Assembly: GCA_021736475.1 (NCBI GenBank)
Contig: JAIPFV010000001.1
Coordinates: 56,991-120,990 of the forward strand
DNA: 64,000 nt
From: Spirochaetia bacterium
GTDB taxonomy: Bacteria > Spirochaetota > Spirochaetia > DSM-16054 > Sediminispirochaetaceae
Direction of reading: 5' to 3'
Of the stretch, positions 4,298-56,011 are shown piece by piece. The notes under the pieces are model-generated. The model was given only the letters and a program-made list of their open reading frames with translations, was not told where the DNA came from and made no database searches. Numbering within the stretch: position 1 is the first letter of the stretch; the number at the start of each line of letters is the position of its first letter. A program made the position numbers and the translations under genes.

Positions 4298-4326
4298 TTG
4301 TCTAAGTGCTAAGTGATTGATACAAT
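4298..4326 (+). promoter_or_regulatory. Promoter of the fliG-like gene
   Basis: TTGTCT (4298-4303), a 17-base spacer and TACAAT (4321-4326). The -10 box ends only 6 bases before the ATG at 4333, so transcription would start at or beside the start codon. Confidence 0.7.
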
Positions 4327-4332
4327 AGAATA

Positions 4333-5607
4333 ATGAAAAACCGCCATGCGATACAAGCCTACAAATTGCAGGCTTTTCAAAAGAAAGAAGATCCCCCTAA
4401 AAAGGGGAAGAAGAAAGACTCGAAGGCCGACCCATCACCGGACAAACAGCAACCTCTGCAGACAAGAAGAAAGCCGAGTCGGGATACCGGAGATACGGCC
4501 GACACGAAGGCCAGTAAAGATTATGCCCCTGTCTCAAACCGAGATTCAGAGGGAAAGTCGCAGAAGGGTGAGATTTATCGAGCCGGTACTGCAGGAATAA
4601 TTGGACGTAATGGATTCCTCAAAACCGGTTTTGGACATAAAAAAGCGGCCAAACTGCTGCTTCTTTTAGGAAAGGAGCAGGCAGCTGTGGTGCTTAAGCA
4701 CCTGTCTCAGGATGAAATTGAGAAGGTGACAGGGGAAATCGCAAAAATAAAAAGAATCGAGCGCCCCGAGGCTGAAAAGATTCTTGAAGAGTTCGGTGAT
4801 ATCGCCGGGGATTTAGCTGCTAATCCACGAGGAGGGGTGGAGACTGCCCGCGAGATGCTGACCAGTTCTTTTGGTGAAGACAAGGCGAATGAAATATTGG
4901 GGAAGGTGCATCCGTATAGTGGAAATCGGCCATTTTCATTTCTGAATGATATGGATTATCAGCAGATTATGCTATTGCTGCGCAAAGAGCCGGTGCATGT
5001 AATGAGTATTGTTCTCTCCTATTTAGTACCGAATAAGGCCTCACAAGTGCTGGAGTCCCTCCCTCCTGAAGTACAGCAGCAGGCAGTGAAACGTATAGCC
5101 CGGATGGGACAAGTATCCCCGGAGGTGCTCTCTTCGGTTGAAGAGAGCCTGCGTGAACGGATCAGGACGCAGGGGAGGGTGATTACTGAGGATATTGACG
5201 GACAAGCGGTTTTAGCAGATATTTTGAAGAATTTACCGCTTCAAGATGAGAATCGGATACTAGACAACTTACATGAAGAAAACAGCAGTTTAGCCGATGA
5301 AATACGGGAGAGGCTGTTTTCCGTCGAGAGTGTACTGGAAATTCCGGATAAACAGTTGCAGGAACTGCTGCACAAGTATCCTGACCGGGATATTGCGACT
5401 ATACTGAAAGGGAAGACTGAGGAGCTTGCAGATAAGATCCTTCGGAATGTTTCACAACGCCGGCAACAGTTCATACGCAGCGAAAGGGAGCAGCTGGGGC
5501 CGATGAAACGTACGGAGGTAGATAGGGTGACCAAAGATTTTATGGCTTTTATTAGAAGTCAGGCAGAGCAGGGCGAGGTTACCCTTGAACGGGACGAACT
5601 GGTATAA
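4333..5607 (+). CDS. FliG-family flagellar motor switch protein, FliG1-like
   Basis: FliG forms the rotor ring under the MS-ring and transmits torque; spirochetes carry two paralogues, FliG1 and FliG2. Residues about 90-200 match FliG-N (HKKAAKLLLLLGKEQAAVVLKHLS), about 200-285 FliG-M and about 290-415 FliG-C (LADEIRERLFSVESVLEIPD, then LGPMKRTEVDRV). Two departures suggest FliG1 rather than the main torque protein: the EHPQT signature of FliG-M reads KEPVHV, and a Lys/Pro/Asp-rich extension of about 85 residues precedes FliG-N. No other flagellar gene is adjacent. The ATG at 4333 is the only early start and has no ribosome site; the promoter directly abuts it. The paralogue assignment is inference. 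Confidence 0.85.
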   Translation: MKNRHAIQAYKLQAFQKKEDPPKKGKKKDSKADPSPDKQQPLQTRRKPSRDTGDTADTKASKDYAPVSNRDSEGKSQKGEIYRAGTAGIIGRNGFLKTGFGHKKAAKLLLLLGKEQAAVVLKHLSQDEIEKVTGEIAKIKRIERPEAEKILEEFGDIAGDLAANPRGGVETAREMLTSSFGEDKANEILGKVHPYSGNRPFSFLNDMDYQQIMLLLRKEPVHVMSIVLSYLVPNKASQVLESLPPEVQQQAVKRIARMGQVSPEVLSSVEESLRERIRTQGRVITEDIDGQAVLADILKNLPLQDENRILDNLHEENSSLADEIRERLFSVESVLEIPDKQLQELLHKYPDRDIATILKGKTEELADKILRNVSQRRQQFIRSEREQLGPMKRTEVDRVTKDFMAFIRSQAEQGEVTLERDELV

Positions 5608-5628
5608 ATCGGTAGAGGAGGAGAGAGC

Positions 5629-6144
5629 GTGTATTCAACAGGAATAGCATATTTGTTGTGGTTAATATCCGGTTTCGGTGTACTGGGTTTCCATAGATTT
5701 TATTTAGGAAAAATAGGTACTGGGCTGCTGTATATTATTACCGGCGGACTGTTTGGGATTGGATCGGTGTATGATTTTATTACCCTTCCCTTGCAGGTGC
5801 GTGAGGCAAATTTACGAACAGGATGGAGAAATGCCCTGTATGGACAACAGCAGACCATGCGACCGGTAGGTGGGATGTCTTATGGGGATCGTACTGACAA
5901 AGGGCGCCGGCATCCGCTTGAACAGGTCATACTGCAAACTGCGAAGCGCAATAATGGAGTTGCCACCCCCTCTGAAGTAGCGTTAGAAAGTGAACGTAGT
6001 CTGGACGAGGTAAAATCGGCGTTAGAGAAGTTGGTGGAGAAGAACTACGCAGAGCTGCGGGTAAGCAAGAAAAACGGGGGGCTGGTGTACTTTTTCTCGG
6101 AATTTTCAGGTGACGGTTCACATCCCGATCTGGAGGATTTCTAA
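5629..6144 (+). CDS. TM2-domain membrane protein with C-terminal helical domain
   Basis: Residues 1-60 are a TM2 domain: two transmembrane segments around a GFHRFYLGK motif, with GIGSVYDFITLP at the second. A linker of about 30 residues follows. Residues 95-160 (QTAKRNNGVATPSEVALES, then LDEVKSALEKLVEKNYAEL) resemble a winged-helix module like those attached to TM2 proteins in other spirochetes. The GTG start at 5629 has AGGAGG about 10 bases upstream. It follows the fliG-like gene by 21 bases and is probably co-transcribed with it. Function unknown. Confidence 0.75.
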   Translation: MYSTGIAYLLWLISGFGVLGFHRFYLGKIGTGLLYIITGGLFGIGSVYDFITLPLQVREANLRTGWRNALYGQQQTMRPVGGMSYGDRTDKGRRHPLEQVILQTAKRNNGVATPSEVALESERSLDEVKSALEKLVEKNYAELRVSKKNGGLVYFFSEFSGDGSHPDLEDF

Positions 6145-6166
6145 CCAGGCGCAATTCACTGGAGTA

Positions 6167-6195
6167 TTGACATTTCGGCTCCCCATGCCTAATAT
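6167..6195 (+). promoter_or_regulatory. Promoter of alaS
   Basis: TTGACA (6167-6172), 17 bases, TAATAT (6190-6195). The -10 box ends 8 bases before the alaS ATG and there is no ribosome site between. Confidence 0.75.
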
Positions 6196-6203
6196 TCTAA
6201 CCT

Positions 6204-8000
6204 ATGACAGCAGACGAACTTAGACAGAAATATATCGATTTCTTTAAGGAACAAGGACACGCCCAAATCTCCGGTAAATCTCTGGTTCCGGAGAACGATC
6301 CTACAGTACTGTTTACCACGGCCGGTATGCACCCCCTGGTCCCCTATTTACTAGGTCAGGACCATCCGGCGGGCAGCCGTCTGGTAAACTATCAGAAATG
6401 TATCCGCACCGGAGATATAGAATCGGTTGGGGACTTGAGCCACCTTACTTTCTTTGAGATGCTGGGAAACTGGTCATTAGGCGACTACTTCAAAAAGGGC
6501 GCTATCAAAATGAGTTATGAGTTCCTCACCTCCGACAAGTGGTTAGGCCTCCCACCCGAGAAGATATCGGTTACCGTTTTTGAAGGCGATCAAGATGTGC
6601 CTCGCGATGATGAATCAGCGGAGGCCTGGAGATCGGTTGGAATACCGGAGGACCGCATTTATTATCTGCCCCGCGAAGACAATTGGTGGGGTCCCGCCGG
6701 ACAAACCGGTCCCTGTGGTCCCGACTCCGAGATGTTCATAGATACTGGTAAGGCTGCCTGTGGCCCAGATTGTCGGCCGGGTTGCTCCTGCGGAAAATAC
6801 TTTGAAGTGTGGAACGATGTTTTCATGCAGTATAATAAAAAGGCTGATGGAACTTTTCCTCCCCTAGAACGAAAATGCGTAGATACAGGTATGGGGATTG
6901 AACGGACTGTTGCGATTTTGCAGGGCAAGGGTTCGGTATATGATATCGAGGTCTTCACACCGATCATAGAAGGAATCGAGAAAATCAGTGGTGCAAAATA
7001 CCATCAGGATGAGATTACGGATGTTTCTATTCGAATTATTGCGGATCATATTAAAACCTCAGTTTTCATTCTGGGAGATGAGCAGGCGATCACACCATCC
7101 AACCTGGGGCAGGGATACATCCTGCGTAGACTTATTCGACGTGCGGTACGGCACGGGCGTAAGCTGGGCGTAGAGCGGCATTTTTTAGCTGAACTAGCCG
7201 AAATAGTGCTGCAGATGTATCGTGAACCTTATCCAATCCTGGCCGAGCACCACGAAACTATAATACATGAGCTGAACACCGAGGAAGAGCGTTTTTTTAC
7301 GACCCTCAAAAAGGGTGAGCATGAGTTTGAGAAGATGCTACCGGGATTACTGAAAAATCCGAAAAAAATAATACCCGGGCGAATAGCCTTTAAACTATAC
7401 GATACCTTCGGTTTTCCGATTGAAATTACCGAAGAACTGGCTGCTGAGCACGGCCTGACCATCGATCGGGAGGGGTTCGAACAAGCCTTTGAAAAGCATC
7501 AGGAACTATCTAAGAAGGGTGCTGATAAAACTTTTAAGGGTGGACTGGCTGACCAGTCGGACAGAACCACCGCCCTGCACACTGCTACCCACCTACTGCA
7601 CAAAGCTTTGCGGATGGTTCTTGGTGAGCATGTGCAACAGAAGGGTAGTAACATTACTCCGGAGAGGCTGCGCTTCGATTTTGTACATCCGGATAAAATG
7701 ACTCCCGAACAGATTAAAGAGGTTGAAGATATTGTAAATGATGTTATCGAGCAAGATTTGCCGGTGCAGATGAACACAATGACCCTCGAAGAGGCAAAGG
7801 AAGATGGCGCTTTGGCTTTTTTTGACAGCAAGTATGGTGAACAGGTGAAGGTGTATTCGGTTGGTGATTTCTCCAAGGAGGTCTGTGGCGGCCCTCATGT
7901 GCAACATACCTCGCAACTAGGCCGTTTTAAGATCAAAAAGGAACAGTCCTCTTCTGCCGGCGTACGCCGTATTCGTGCGGTCCTAGAGCCCGCGGAATAA
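6204..8000 (+). CDS. alaS: Alanyl-tRNA synthetase, short spirochete form
   Basis: Class II synthetase that charges tRNA-Ala and clears mischarged Ser/Gly-tRNA-Ala. The N-terminal 250 residues hold the catalytic core (FTTAGMHPLVPYL, then LTFFEMLGNWSLGDYFK), with a Cys-rich stretch (CGPDCRPGCSCG) near residue 190. The editing domain is present: HTATHLLH at about 458-465 and CGGPHVQHT at about 561-569. The protein stops there, at 598 residues against about 875 in E. coli, so the C-Ala domain is absent; Borrelia and Treponema enzymes are similarly short. MTADELRQKYIDFF is a normal AlaRS N-terminus, which fixes the start at 6204 despite the lack of a Shine-Dalgarno sequence. Confidence 0.97.
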   Translation: MTADELRQKYIDFFKEQGHAQISGKSLVPENDPTVLFTTAGMHPLVPYLLGQDHPAGSRLVNYQKCIRTGDIESVGDLSHLTFFEMLGNWSLGDYFKKGAIKMSYEFLTSDKWLGLPPEKISVTVFEGDQDVPRDDESAEAWRSVGIPEDRIYYLPREDNWWGPAGQTGPCGPDSEMFIDTGKAACGPDCRPGCSCGKYFEVWNDVFMQYNKKADGTFPPLERKCVDTGMGIERTVAILQGKGSVYDIEVFTPIIEGIEKISGAKYHQDEITDVSIRIIADHIKTSVFILGDEQAITPSNLGQGYILRRLIRRAVRHGRKLGVERHFLAELAEIVLQMYREPYPILAEHHETIIHELNTEEERFFTTLKKGEHEFEKMLPGLLKNPKKIIPGRIAFKLYDTFGFPIEITEELAAEHGLTIDREGFEQAFEKHQELSKKGADKTFKGGLADQSDRTTALHTATHLLHKALRMVLGEHVQQKGSNITPERLRFDFVHPDKMTPEQIKEVEDIVNDVIEQDLPVQMNTMTLEEAKEDGALAFFDSKYGEQVKVYSVGDFSKEVCGGPHVQHTSQLGRFKIKKEQSSSAGVRRIRAVLEPAE

Positions 8001-38097: not shown

Positions 38098-38157
38098 GGC
38101 AATCTTTCAACCACTACCTTCATCTTCCTAGGGCGGAGTGTCGATAATATACTTAAG

Positions 38158-41206: not shown

Positions 41207-41455
41207 CTATTCCCTGTTGCCGCTGTCTTCCGTACCGGGAAACAGCTCCAGGTTAGGTTCTTCTTTTGTTGAATCCGGTTCATTGACCAGTATTTCAATC
41301 TTGCGTTCTATCTTCGAAAGGTCTTTTTCAAGGCTTTTGGCAAGCTTAATGCCCTCTTCAAACATCTCGACGGCATCGTCAAGAGGTACCTTTCCGGCCT
41401 TCATCTGTTCATTCAGCTCTTCGAGCTTTTCGAGCCGCTCCTCAAACTTTTTCAC
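41207..41455 (-). CDS. xseB: Exodeoxyribonuclease VII small subunit
   Basis: An 82-residue helical protein: FEERLEKLEELNEQMKAGKV and LDDAVEMFEEGIKLAKSLEKDL are the XseB consensus, forming the coiled-coil that binds several copies to each XseA. It overlaps the end of xseA by 4 bases, the usual xseA-xseB arrangement, ensuring co-production of the nuclease that degrades single-stranded DNA. Confidence 0.95.
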   Translation of the reverse strand: MKKFEERLEKLEELNEQMKAGKVPLDDAVEMFEEGIKLAKSLEKDLSKIERKIEILVNEPDSTKEEPNLELFPGTEDSGNRE

Positions 41456-42684
41456 GGCGTCTCCTCCTCAATGCGGGTGTATCTGTTCTCTACGGTAGCG
41501 TCCAGTCGACCGTCGTGGAGACGAATATCAATCGGATCTCCGGTGTTACTTTGCTTCACACTTCCTATCAGCACGCCGTTGCGGCGGTCAGTGACTACTG
41601 CGTAGCCCTTCCGTAAAATAGCTAAGGGCGAGTTGCCCTCGATGGAAGACCTCAGCATATCAACTCGATGCCGGGAGCTGGTCAGCATATCCTGTAGGTT
41701 TCTGACCGCCTCCTCCTTGGCATCATCGAGACGCAGCTGGTAGGGTTGCAGTACCTGCCGAAAGCGCTCCTCCAGATTTTCCGGTGTAAACTGTCGAATC
41801 AGGAGCCCGGCGTTTTCCACCCGGTTCTGAATTCGGGTGCTCATTTCTTCCTTTAAGCGATAAACTCTATCGGAAAGCTCTTCGCGGCTTTTACTGACAA
41901 TCTCAGCTGCCGCTGAGGGTGTCGGTGCGCTTACATCGGCCGCATAATCGGTTAGGGCTGTGTCGATTTCATGTCCCACTGCCGAGATAACCGGGATTTC
42001 AGATTCGGCCACCGCCCGAACCACCTCTTCGTCGGAAAAGGGCAACAGATCTTCAAGGGAGCCGCCGCCCCGGCCGGTAATTATGACGTCTCCAAGCTGA
42101 AAACGGTTTGCACGGCGTATTTGGGCGGCAATTTTTGCTCCGGCGCTGTCTCCCTGGACGGGAGCCGGTAGTACCACTACATCCAATCCGGATGAACGTC
42201 GGCCGAGTACCTGCAGTATATCCCGGATAGCCGCTCCGGTGGGAGAGGTAACCACTGCTATTCTGGTGGGGAAAAAGGGCAGCGGCCTTTTTTTCTCTTC
42301 GGCAAACAGTCCCTCTGCGGCGAGTTTACGTTTGCGCTCTTCCAGCATGGCCAGAATATCACCTTCTCCGGCCTTTTCCATGCTGTCGCATATAATCTGG
42401 TAGTTTCCCCGCTTGGCGTACACGCTGATGTTACCGCGAACCACCACTTTCTGACCGTCCGCAGGAGTAAAGGCAACCCGGGCAGAGCGGTACTTAAACA
42501 TTACCGCTTGAATCATTGCATCCCGATCTTTTAAGGTAAAATACCAATGACCGCTTCCGGCGGGCCGAAAGTTTGATATTTCCCCTTCTATCGCGACTGT
42601 TGAAAAGCTTTGTTCAAGAATCTCTTTGATATGGGCGGTGATTTCGGAAACCTGAAATCGGTATTCACCTGGTGGAAACTGCAT
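41452..42684 (-). CDS. xseA: Exodeoxyribonuclease VII large subunit
   Basis: Catalytic subunit of the single-strand exonuclease. The N-terminal OB fold (VAIEGEISNFRPAGSGHWYFTLKD, residues about 28-51) is followed by the Exonuc_VII_L core: RIAVVTSPTGAAIRDILQVL near 135, ITGRGGGSLEDLLPFSDEEV near 195 and SAVGHEIDTALTDYAAD near 230, then a long helical tail. Length 410 is normal. The ATG at 42684 lacks a ribosome site and follows a promoter -10 box by 6 bases. The xseB gene follows with a 4-base overlap. Confidence 0.96.
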   Translation of the reverse strand: MQFPPGEYRFQVSEITAHIKEILEQSFSTVAIEGEISNFRPAGSGHWYFTLKDRDAMIQAVMFKYRSARVAFTPADGQKVVVRGNISVYAKRGNYQIICDSMEKAGEGDILAMLEERKRKLAAEGLFAEEKKRPLPFFPTRIAVVTSPTGAAIRDILQVLGRRSSGLDVVVLPAPVQGDSAGAKIAAQIRRANRFQLGDVIITGRGGGSLEDLLPFSDEEVVRAVAESEIPVISAVGHEIDTALTDYAADVSAPTPSAAAEIVSKSREELSDRVYRLKEEMSTRIQNRVENAGLLIRQFTPENLEERFRQVLQPYQLRLDDAKEEAVRNLQDMLTSSRHRVDMLRSSIEGNSPLAILRKGYAVVTDRRNGVLIGSVKQSNTGDPIDIRLHDGRLDATVENRYTRIEEETP

Positions 42685-42690
42685 TTACCT

Positions 42691-42719
42691 ATCTTACACG
42701 TATTTAATTGCTTTTTCAA
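42691..42719 (-). promoter_or_regulatory. Promoter of xseA
   Basis: On the minus strand TTGAAA (42719-42714), 17 bases, TAAGAT (42696-42691); the ATG starts 7 bases after the -10 box. Confidence 0.65.
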
Positions 42720-42745: not shown

Positions 42746-43333
42746 CTATGAGTCTATATGATGGCCGAGCTTTTGTCTAATCCATTTGTAGCTCTCATCA
42801 GCCATCTCTCGGAAATCGGTGGGCAACTGCTGACTCAACATTTGTTCAAGTACATCTCTGGCCGCTTCATAGTATTTGAAGTGGATATGCGCCATAGCCA
42901 GTGCATAACCGGTACGGTAGTCTTCGGGATTCAGTTTGTAGGAGGTTTGAAATTTAATATAACTCTCATCCTTTTTGCCGAGCTGATTGTATACCACCCC
43001 TAAATTGCGTTTTATTGAAGAGCTATCGGGCATGAGCTTCTCTGCCTTTTCAAGATATTCGCAAGCTTCCTGGTAATGACCAATTTTAAAATTGGCACAA
43101 CCGCATGCTTCGAGGGCCTGGGGATGTTCCTCTTCAAACTTGAAAAAGAAATCCAAAGCCTTCTTCGCCTCCAGCGCCTGATTGTTCTCGGTAAAGGCAA
43201 CGCCGATACGCCACAGAGCTTCCTGGTTATCCGGCTCATCCGCCAGGATTCTGTTCAGCAGCTCTACCGCTTCCTCATACATTCCGGTTTCGATTAAACT
43301 GTCGACTCTTTCGAAATCATTATCCATACTCAT
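42746..43333 (-). CDS. Tetratricopeptide-repeat protein
   Basis: A soluble 195-residue protein with about four TPR units: YEEAVELLNRILADEPDNQEA, NNQALEAKKALDFFFKFEEEH, YQEACEYLEKAEKLMPDSSS and GKKDESYIKFQTSYKLNPED. No signal peptide or enzyme domain. Two ATG codons six bases apart (43333 and 43327) could start it; neither has a ribosome site, and a TATATT box ends 9 bases before the first. It is divergent from the thioesterase gene across a gap of about 165 bases. Role unknown. Confidence 0.82.
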   Translation of the reverse strand: MSMDNDFERVDSLIETGMYEEAVELLNRILADEPDNQEALWRIGVAFTENNQALEAKKALDFFFKFEEEHPQALEACGCANFKIGHYQEACEYLEKAEKLMPDSSSIKRNLGVVYNQLGKKDESYIKFQTSYKLNPEDYRTGYALAMAHIHFKYYEAARDVLEQMLSQQLPTDFREMADESYKWIRQKLGHHIDS

Positions 43334-43342
43334 TCTGTAATA

Positions 43343-43370
43343 AATATACTAGGGAAGTGCGAAAAATCAA
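43343..43370 (-). promoter_or_regulatory. Promoter of the TPR gene at 43.3 kb
   Basis: On the minus strand TTGATT (43370-43365), 16 bases, TATATT (43348-43343). Predicted transcription start is about 3 bases before the ATG at 43333. Confidence 0.6.
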
Positions 43371-53814: not shown

Positions 53815-54363
53815 TTAGAAAAGGAAAATTCCGATAAGGCCCCCAGCCACAATGTAATAGACCGGGTAGGCTTTTGTTTTCCAGTACACCAGGGCGATGA
53901 CCGCTCCTAGGGTGAAGGCCGGCAGTTCGAACCAGCCCGTTCCGGGGAAATGTTCCATCAGCAGGACCGAGTTGGACAGGACAAACCAGGCGGCCGCGGC
54001 AATCAAGCCGATGGCCGCCGGGCGGACTCCGCCCAGTACGTTTTGTACCAGAGGATGGTCGGAAAAATTGCGCATAAATCGGGCAATGAGAATAATTATA
54101 ATTAGTGAAGGAGCAACCATCCCGGCGGTAGCGGCAAGCGAGCCCGGAAAAGAGGCGGCTTTAAAGCCCGCATAGGTGGCCATATTGATGCCGATCGGTC
54201 CGGGGGTGGACTGGCTAACCGCCAGCATGTCGATAAACTCGGCCCCTGAGACCCAGCCCCCGGCTACCAGTTCCTCCCGCAGCAGAGGGATAGCCGCTAG
54301 GCCGCCGCCGATAGTAAACAGGCCAATCTTAAAAAATGCGGCAAAAATAGTGAGCAAACTCAT
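53815..54363 (-). CDS. Chromate transporter family, second short subunit
   Basis: A 182-residue membrane protein of the CHR family (short, single-domain form). The conserved GLFTIGGGLAAIPLLREELV (residues 12-31) and VSQSTPGPIGINMATYAGF (about 49-67) are present, with five to six hydrophobic segments. Short CHR proteins work in pairs; the partner gene directly precedes and overlaps by 4 bases. CHR proteins are known for chromate efflux, but in bacteria without chromate exposure the natural anion may differ. Confidence 0.9.
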   Translation of the reverse strand: MSLLTIFAAFFKIGLFTIGGGLAAIPLLREELVAGGWVSGAEFIDMLAVSQSTPGPIGINMATYAGFKAASFPGSLAATAGMVAPSLIIIILIARFMRNFSDHPLVQNVLGGVRPAAIGLIAAAAWFVLSNSVLLMEHFPGTGWFELPAFTLGAVIALVYWKTKAYPVYYIVAGGLIGIFLF

Positions 54364-54941
54364 TTCTGATCACCTCTTCCATTGTTTTCCGGGTCGACAT
54401 GTTTTCTACGAGCCAAAGCACCTGCGGCAAGGCCGATGAAGGCTCCCGTCAGCAGAACAGGAATAGGCGAGAGCCTGAGTAGCGCTACGCCGATAAATGC
54501 CCCTATGAACAAAACTACCCCCTGCAGCCCGTGGACAGCCTTTTTGATGAGGGAGGCCACCGTAAAGCTCAGCAGCACCGCCACCGCCACCCGGATTCCC
54601 CGCAGCGCCTTTTGAACCACTACTTCATCCTGAAAGCGGGCAAAAAATATGGCTATGATGGTGATTATAATGAGCGAGGGGCCGACCATTCCTGCGGTGG
54701 AGGCCAGCGCACCCCACACTCCCCGCCGCTTGTAGCCGACAAAGGTGGCCGTATTTATCGCGATAATTCCGGGGGTGGCTTGGGCGATAGCGTAGTAATC
54801 GATGAGCTCGGCGTCGCTTAGCCAATCCCGGTCCTCTACCATCTCGCGGCGAAGCATCGGCAGCATTACGTAGCCACCGCCGATGGAAAATAGGCCGATT
54901 TTGAAAAATATGATAAAAAGGTTCAGTAGTTCGCGTAGCAT
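54360..54941 (-). CDS. Chromate transporter family, first short subunit
   Basis: A 193-residue CHR-family membrane protein: IGLFSIGGGYVMLPMLRREMV (about 15-34) and IAQATPGIIAINTATFVGY (about 51-69) repeat the motifs of the partner encoded downstream. Together the two halves make the equivalent of a two-domain ChrA. Translation of the second gene is coupled through the 4-base ATGA overlap. The two sequences are similar but clearly diverged, as expected for an old duplication with opposite membrane topology. Confidence 0.9.
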   Translation of the reverse strand: MLRELLNLFIIFFKIGLFSIGGGYVMLPMLRREMVEDRDWLSDAELIDYYAIAQATPGIIAINTATFVGYKRRGVWGALASTAGMVGPSLIIITIIAIFFARFQDEVVVQKALRGIRVAVAVLLSFTVASLIKKAVHGLQGVVLFIGAFIGVALLRLSPIPVLLTGAFIGLAAGALARRKHVDPENNGRGDQK

Positions 54942-55055: not shown

Positions 55056-55084
55056 TTGACATATCGGGGCGGTGCGCCTATTAT
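55056..55084 (+). promoter_or_regulatory. Promoter of the PAP2 gene
   Basis: TTGACA (55056-55061), 17 bases, TATTAT (55079-55084): close to consensus. The ATG at 55091 is exactly 7 bases after the -10 box, i.e. at the predicted +1. Confidence 0.85.
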
Positions 55085-55090
55085 GGCTCT

Positions 55091-55960
55091 ATGGAATTAC
55101 AAGTTGAACTGCTGAAAATGATACAGCAGATTCGGTTTCCTCTGTTGGATGTGCTGTTTCAGGCAATAACTATGACTGCAGAGGAACTGGTTATTATTGT
55201 AATTGCGGCATGGTTTTTGTGGTGCGGCAACAAGCAGCTTGGGTATCGGGTGGGCTTTGCCTTTTTGGTAAGCACTGTGGTGAACCCCCTGCTTAAAAAC
55301 AGCTTTCGCCTGGAACGGCCGATCGGCATTGAGGGCATCGAGTCTCAACGGGTGCATACTGCGGAAGGGTTTGCCTTTCCCAGCGGGCATACCCAGGCCG
55401 CCGCTGCCCTCTGGACAGGGTTGATGAGCTTTGTCCGTCGCCCCTGGATGTACCGGCTTGGTGGGAGTATGATTGTGCTGGTTGCTCTTTCAAGGATGTA
55501 CTTGGGGGTGCACTGGCCTATGGATGTGCTCGGTGGTGCTGCAGCGGGGATAATTACCGCGCTGTTGATGAACAAGCTCTTCGATCTGGCTTCACGGCGC
55601 AAGAACAAATACCTGCTGCTGTGGGCGGTAATTCCGCTATTCCTAGGGTTGTTTCTGTTTGAAGATAAAAACTATGTGCAGCCCTTTGGGGCCCTGCTCG
55701 GGTTTTGGCTGGGGTATCTTCTTGAGGAGCGGTATATAAAAATTGAAGTTTCAGCTGTGTGGTGGCGGCAGGGACTGAAAATGGCTGTCGGTTTGCTGGG
55801 ATTGATCGGTATTAGAGTAGGCCTGAAGCTGCTGCTCGGAACAGTCTTTCCTGCCGACTTTATGGTTTCTGACCTCATACGGTACTTTTTTATAGGGCTA
55901 TGGCTAACTGCTGGTGCACCCTATGTGTTTAAAAATTGTAACATACAATATAAGAAATAA
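55091..55960 (+). CDS. PAP2-family membrane phosphatase
   Basis: Integral membrane phosphatase of 289 residues with the three PAP2 motifs: KNSFRLERP (near 74), PSGHTQAAAALW (near 97) and SRMYLGVHWPMDVLGG (near 136), containing the catalytic histidines. About six transmembrane segments surround them; the C-terminal third adds further helices not found in minimal PAP2 proteins. Likely substrates are undecaprenyl pyrophosphate, phosphatidate or related lipids. It has no ribosome site, and its promoter places +1 at the ATG. Confidence 0.9.
   Translation: MELQVELLKMIQQIRFPLLDVLFQAITMTAEELVIIVIAAWFLWCGNKQLGYRVGFAFLVSTVVNPLLKNSFRLERPIGIEGIESQRVHTAEGFAFPSGHTQAAAALWTGLMSFVRRPWMYRLGGSMIVLVALSRMYLGVHWPMDVLGGAAAGIITALLMNKLFDLASRRKNKYLLLWAVIPLFLGLFLFEDKNYVQPFGALLGFWLGYLLEERYIKIEVSAVWWRQGLKMAVGLLGLIGIRVGLKLLLGTVFPADFMVSDLIRYFFIGLWLTAGAPYVFKNCNIQYKK
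55935..55949. promoter_or_regulatory. Operator-like repeat before the GntR/LacI gene
   Basis: ATTGTA-N3-TACAAT, a perfect inverted repeat of 6 bp at the end of the PAP2 gene, with a further AATTGTAT half-site at 55965-55972, just upstream of the regulator promoter. The half-site TTGTA recurs before the transporter operon at 57196-57208 and 57313-57323. Confidence 0.5.
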
Positions 55961-55982: not shown

Positions 55983-56011
55983 TTGACAAATGCATATTTT
56001 GCTTTCATACT
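55983..56011 (+). promoter_or_regulatory. Promoter of the GntR/LacI gene
   Basis: TTGACA (55983-55988), 17 bases, CATACT (56006-56011); the ATG at 56019 follows after 7 bases with no ribosome site. Confidence 0.7.

Follow-up and report, generated by a model that had tools for sequence, protein, structure and literature searches.

Leaderless genes preceded by a TA-like signal have been predicted in 6 of 18 Spirochaetes genomes, where they make up 1.8-6.9% of the genes (Zheng et al. 2011, PMC3160421). Likewise, dRNA-seq of Leptospira interrogans recovered about 440 mRNAs with a 5'UTR shorter than 10 nt (PMC5243855). Beyond the spirochaetes, a -10 region adjoining the ORF has been shown experimentally to drive leaderless expression in Deinococcus-Thermus (PMC12340547), and in Mycobacterium tuberculosis many mRNAs start at the start codon, beside a Shine-Dalgarno (SD) mode (PMC3898074). 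The leaderless mode itself is already known in bacteria, spirochaetes included, and is here confirmed statistically for an uncultured lineage of the class Spirochaetia represented by a metagenome-assembled genome (MAG).

The genes described below resemble the set of Zheng et al. in possessing a TANNNT motif about 10 bases before the start codon, in lacking an SD site and in forming a minority of all genes, and their share of 4-5% falls inside the published spirochaete range (PMC3160421). In contrast to that survey, the present analysis also covers the -35 box, its spacing and the conservation of the layout in orthologues. Leptospira interrogans belongs to the same phylum but to a different class, and its leaderless mRNAs were measured, whereas those reported here are predicted (PMC5243855). 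The Deinococcus-Thermus promoters have the same promoter-to-ATG geometry, but are found at about 30% of genes as against 4-5% here, where TTGACA at a 17-base spacing is usual (PMC12340547). The actinobacterial M. tuberculosis likewise mixes the leaderless and SD modes, with the former far more frequent than here (PMC3898074). The observations below put numbers on one more genome that mixes SD with leaderless initiation, and they correct the annotation of start codons and the prediction of promoters in a lineage that has received little study.

The promoter of the PAP2 gene

The clearest case in the window (the whole 64,000-nucleotide stretch of DNA analysed) is a gene for a PAP2-superfamily phosphatase, with the following features:

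55056..55061, + strand: -35 box TTGACA of the PAP2 gene (sequence reading and promoter matrix)
55079..55084, + strand: -10 box TATTAT of the PAP2 gene, first base at -12 (sequence and matrix; same positions in the congener G001)
55091..55960, + strand: PAP2-superfamily phosphatase gene, 289 aa, predicted leaderless (Pfam PF01569, E 1.1e-20)

The upstream region reads TTGACA, a 17-base spacer, TATTAT, GGCTCT and the ATG at 55091-55093. Since the -10 hexamer starts at -12, which is also the genome-wide mode, the A of the ATG falls at the usual +1. The first-pass annotation had placed this ATG at the predicted transcription start of a TTGACA-17-TATTAT promoter, and the sequence agrees: a promoter matrix trained outside the window gives it a score of 13.5 (empirical p 0.001), the best of seven cases listed in the window. 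The congener has the layout TTGACT-17-TATCCT-6-ATG. Among relatives of the gene the layout was recovered in 2 of 23 overall, which is not above chance, only the single congener having it, and in the orthologue scan SD sites were frequent among distant PAP2 relatives. Relatives of the PAP2 gene occur on many spirochaete contigs. Divergent from the PAP2 gene and 149 bases from it lie two adjoining chromate-transporter half genes (182 and 193 aa; window 53815-54941).

A genome-wide excess of -10 boxes at the start codon

The MAG comprises 3.22 Mb in 160 contigs, of which 1.63 Mb (about half) with 1326 genes was analysed. Genes were called with a hexamer coding model, and their starts were picked by coding potential, never by upstream signals. 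At least 45 bases of upstream space, taken as room for a promoter, are available to 686 of the 1326 genes, and 283 of these 686 have no SD match of at least 4 bases. The MAG yields no 16S rRNA match from which the anti-SD could be read directly.

In these 283 genes TANNNT starts exactly at -12 in 51, as against a background of 7.6 (mean of positions -60 to -25; Poisson tail about 1e-25). The main peak is one base wide, with 6 genes at -11 and 18 at -13. Positions -16 to -13 form a shoulder, each with a -10 box in 15-19 genes (versus 7.6). The peak at -12 is absent in SD genes (4 of 266) and in operon-internal genes without SD (2 of 93). In the first 1.39 Mb, 44 genes have the motif at -12, while 200 dinucleotide shuffles gave 6.6 +/- 2.5 with a maximum of 16. 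The signal persists under the longest-ORF start rule (59 of 686, background 22), without any filter (75 of 1326, background 33) and with the window excluded (50 of 269). Among genes with only one possible start codon it is at least as sharp (18 of 60, background 1.4). The regular leaderless mode that the first-pass annotation had suspected from seven genes is supported by the genome-wide count it had proposed: the excess (51 versus 7.6, with controls of 2 to 4) is robust to the start rule and is seen only where an SD match is lacking or minimal.

The 51 genes were chosen solely by TANNNT at -12, and 31 of them also possess a TTGACA-like box (at most 2 mismatches) 16-18 bases upstream, whereas each of two wrong spacings yields 4 of 51. 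After refinement the -35 consensus reads TTGACA, and 17 is the commonest spacing (37 of 56), with a -35 match that is only partial in many genes. The shoulder genes have -35 partners too (e.g. 9 of 19 at -15). A pyrimidine occupies -1 in 77% of the genes with the box at -12 and in 60% of the SD genes, a surplus that would be expected of a start at A+1. ATG is the start codon of 63 of 66 leaderless candidates and of 240 of 258 SD genes, in calls by a start picker that itself favours ATG. The promoter matrix, from whose training the window was excluded, gives 68 hits between -16 and -11 among 420 genes with little or no SD, whereas ten upstream control windows, which contain true promoters themselves, average 11.2. 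The resulting excess of about 57 in 1326 genes is 4.3%, an estimate that 'about one gene in twenty' rounds. Roughly 4-5% of the genes use the promoter-at-ATG layout, beside the dominant SD mode.

Further cases in the window

The remaining features of the layout in the window are:

4298..4326, + strand: fliG1 promoter TTGTCT-17-TACAAT, -10 at -12 (matrix; layout in 8/20 fliG relatives)
4333..5607, + strand: fliG1, 424 aa, predicted leaderless (Pfam FliG N, M and C domains)
6167..6195, + strand: alaS promoter TTGACA-17-TAATAT, -10 at -14 (matrix; conserved in 17/26 orthologues)
6204..8000, + strand: alaS, alanyl-tRNA synthetase, 598 aa, predicted leaderless or with a leader of at most 3 nt (Pfam PF01411, E 6.4e-147)
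38145..38153, + strand: weak case at start 38158, overlapping -10-like TAATAT (-13) and TATACT (-10) without a good -35 (matrix)
41452..42684, - strand: xseA, exonuclease VII large subunit, predicted leaderless (Pfam PF02601, E 8.4e-88)
42691..42719, - strand: xseA promoter TTGAAA-17-TAAGAT, -10 at -12 (matrix; similar layout in 5/19 orthologues)
42746..43333, - strand: TPR protein gene, 195 aa, predicted leader of 0-3 nt (Pfam TPR)
43343..43370, - strand: TPR gene promoter TTGATT-16-TATATT, -10 at -15 (matrix)
55983..56011, + strand: weak case TTGACA-17-CATACT, good -35 and poor -10 (matrix)
start 56019, + strand: GntR/LacI-type regulator (Pfam GntR and Peripla_BP_3)

Seven genes of the window, the PAP2 gene among them, had been listed as sharing one arrangement. 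Five of them are strong by the matrix trained outside the window: beside the PAP2 gene, these are the TPR gene at 43333 (score 12.4, empirical p 0.003), alaS at 6204 (12.2, p 0.004), fliG1 at 4333 (10.2, p 0.010) and xseA at 42684 (10.1, p 0.011). The other two are weak, namely 38158 (best 7.9 at -10, or 5.0 at -13; p 0.03-0.07) and 56019 (6.1, p 0.05, with CATACT as its -10). For 6204 and 43333 the promoter is strong, but the -10 lies 2-3 bases further out, and these two genes may have a leader of 0-3 nt. The window itself has no significant local excess, with 5 matrix hits versus 2.7 expected per 64 kb (Poisson p 0.13).

The genes fliG1, alaS and a TM2-domain gene are grouped at 4333-8000. 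By hit positions, fliG and alaS also lie within a few kb of each other in the relatives G001, G008, G015, G018, G019 and G025, and the fliG-alaS neighborhood looks conserved in the class. The FliG protein of the window (4333-5607) has about 100 residues ahead of its FliG_N domain, which begins at residue 101; the genome has a second gene for FliG at another locus (G000:C63). A recoded TGA was considered for the fliG genes of G010 and G017 and rejected, as the apparent internal stops lie upstream of the true start.

Conservation of the layout in alaS, fliG1 and xseA

A promoter at -16 to -11 with no SD is present in 17 of 26 alaS orthologues of the class, including one near-duplicate pair (G002 and G003), whereas shuffles gave 0.5 with a maximum of 4. 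The layout is TTGACA-17-TACTAT-7/9-ATG, with a perfect TTGACA in 15 of the 17, a -10 that is mostly TACTAT or TAGTAT, and positions of this box mostly at -13 to -15. Pyrimidines predominate directly ahead of the ATG (CCT, CCC, GCC, GCT), which would make A+1 the likeliest purine start even with the -10 at -13 to -15. Four of the remaining nine orthologues carry an SD instead. A strict sequence pattern of leaderless alaS matches 18 of 247 genomes of the phylum, all in class Spirochaetia; it was not found outside this class in that set, unlike the leaderless mode as such, which is shared with Leptospira. The layout recurs in 8 of 20 relatives of fliG1 (0.26 shuffled), often as TTGACC-17-TANNAT-6-ATG, and in 5 of 19 xseA orthologues (0.25 shuffled). 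By comparison of these upstream sequences, it is kept across much of the class in alaS, and in part in fliG1 and xseA.

The conserved layout at alaS is a new detail, in that no description of a leaderless alaS in spirochaetes was found in an incomplete search of the literature. With it, nature provides a clean test of whether selection acts on the leaderless translation of an essential gene, and of what controls such translation. One might speculate, tentatively and with more doubt than conviction, that a small core set, above all alaS, is kept leaderless by selection throughout most of Spirochaetia via a near-identical TTGACA-17-TA(C/G)TAT abutting the ATG, with leaderless initiation as a maintained control feature. 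If this were true, leaderless initiation of alaS would not be a by-product, and could, for example, tie the translation of this gene to how many free 70S ribosomes are available.

Proposed mechanism and alternative explanations

Taken together, the two boxes with their exact positions and spacing, the missing SD, the excess across the genome and the conservation in alaS make it very probable that these are leaderless genes with ordinary housekeeping promoters of the sigma-70 type. Where transcription starts, and by which route these mRNAs are translated, is inferred from what is known of bacterial promoters and leaderless mRNAs in general. The -35 and -10 boxes are placed so that RNA polymerase would start on the A of the ATG or no more than about three bases away from it. 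Such an mRNA would begin with AUG, and the 70S ribosome (or the 30S with IF2) and initiator tRNA would take it directly, without SD pairing. The -10 boxes at -13 to -16, that of alaS at -14 included, could give leaders of 1-4 nt instead of none. Indeed, the shoulder with its -35 partners and the prevailing -10 position in alaS orthologues would also fit ultrashort leaders of 1-5 nt, so that the genes would be near-leaderless in function and strictly not leaderless. This is an appreciable possibility, if not the expected one, as the one-base-wide main peak at -12 puts +1, at the standard distance from the box, on the A of the ATG, and the pyrimidines preceding the alaS ATG point the same way.

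More distant alternatives concern the start codons, the transcripts and the matches themselves. Some upstream gaps are wide (443 bases for fliG1), as might be expected if the promoter next to the ATG were secondary and the main transcripts started further upstream, with a long leader without SD (e.g. S1-dependent). This is improbable, given that the adjacent promoter is conserved in alaS while the surrounding DNA diverges and is avoided in SD genes, both of which imply that it is what selection keeps. It is even harder to sustain that the promoters are real but the start codons wrong, and that translation truly begins further downstream, after a normal leader with an SD. Within 40 codons, 7 of 59 such genes do have another in-frame start preceded by an SD, but this is no higher than in SD genes (33 of 266), the alaS orthologues align from residue 1 at the same ATG across many genera, and the peak loses none of its sharpness in genes with a single possible start. 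Chance matches in AT-rich upstream DNA, picked by a pattern-seeking reader, could reach 38158 and 56019, but are scarcely credible beyond these; as an explanation for the whole set they are refuted by all controls, being reproduced by neither shuffles, SD genes, operon-internal genes, wrong spacings, reversed patterns nor a 15-base gap.

Distribution in the phylum and genes carrying the layout

The pattern TTGACN-(16-18)-TANNNT-6-ATG has 32 matches in the whole genome, versus 5 with a 15-base gap. Seventeen genomes of the class total 342 matches versus 68 in the control, and 51 genomes of other classes 972 versus 438, with 48 of the 51 in the same direction. Family f20, which comprises small genomes of the same class (G022, G136 and G141), shows no leaderless signature by this count (7 versus 9 in the control). 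Thirteen genomes of other phyla have 1-17 matches, with reversed-pattern controls mostly close.

The best-scoring hits of the genome include genes for methionyl-tRNA synthetase (metG), PTS enzyme I, CheD, 16S rRNA (cytidine 1402) 2'-O-methyltransferase, nicotinate phosphoribosyltransferase, a ROK-family protein, a ParA-type ATPase, a response regulator, two sensor kinases, a TetR regulator and two DUF4143 AAA ATPases. The earlier suggestion that essential genes are among those with this layout is supported by alaS and metG. The two DUF4143/AAA_14 ATPase genes lie on separate contigs (L095:9802-11139 and L146:16024-17211), and both have near-consensus leaderless promoters, with scores of 12.3 and 13.5.
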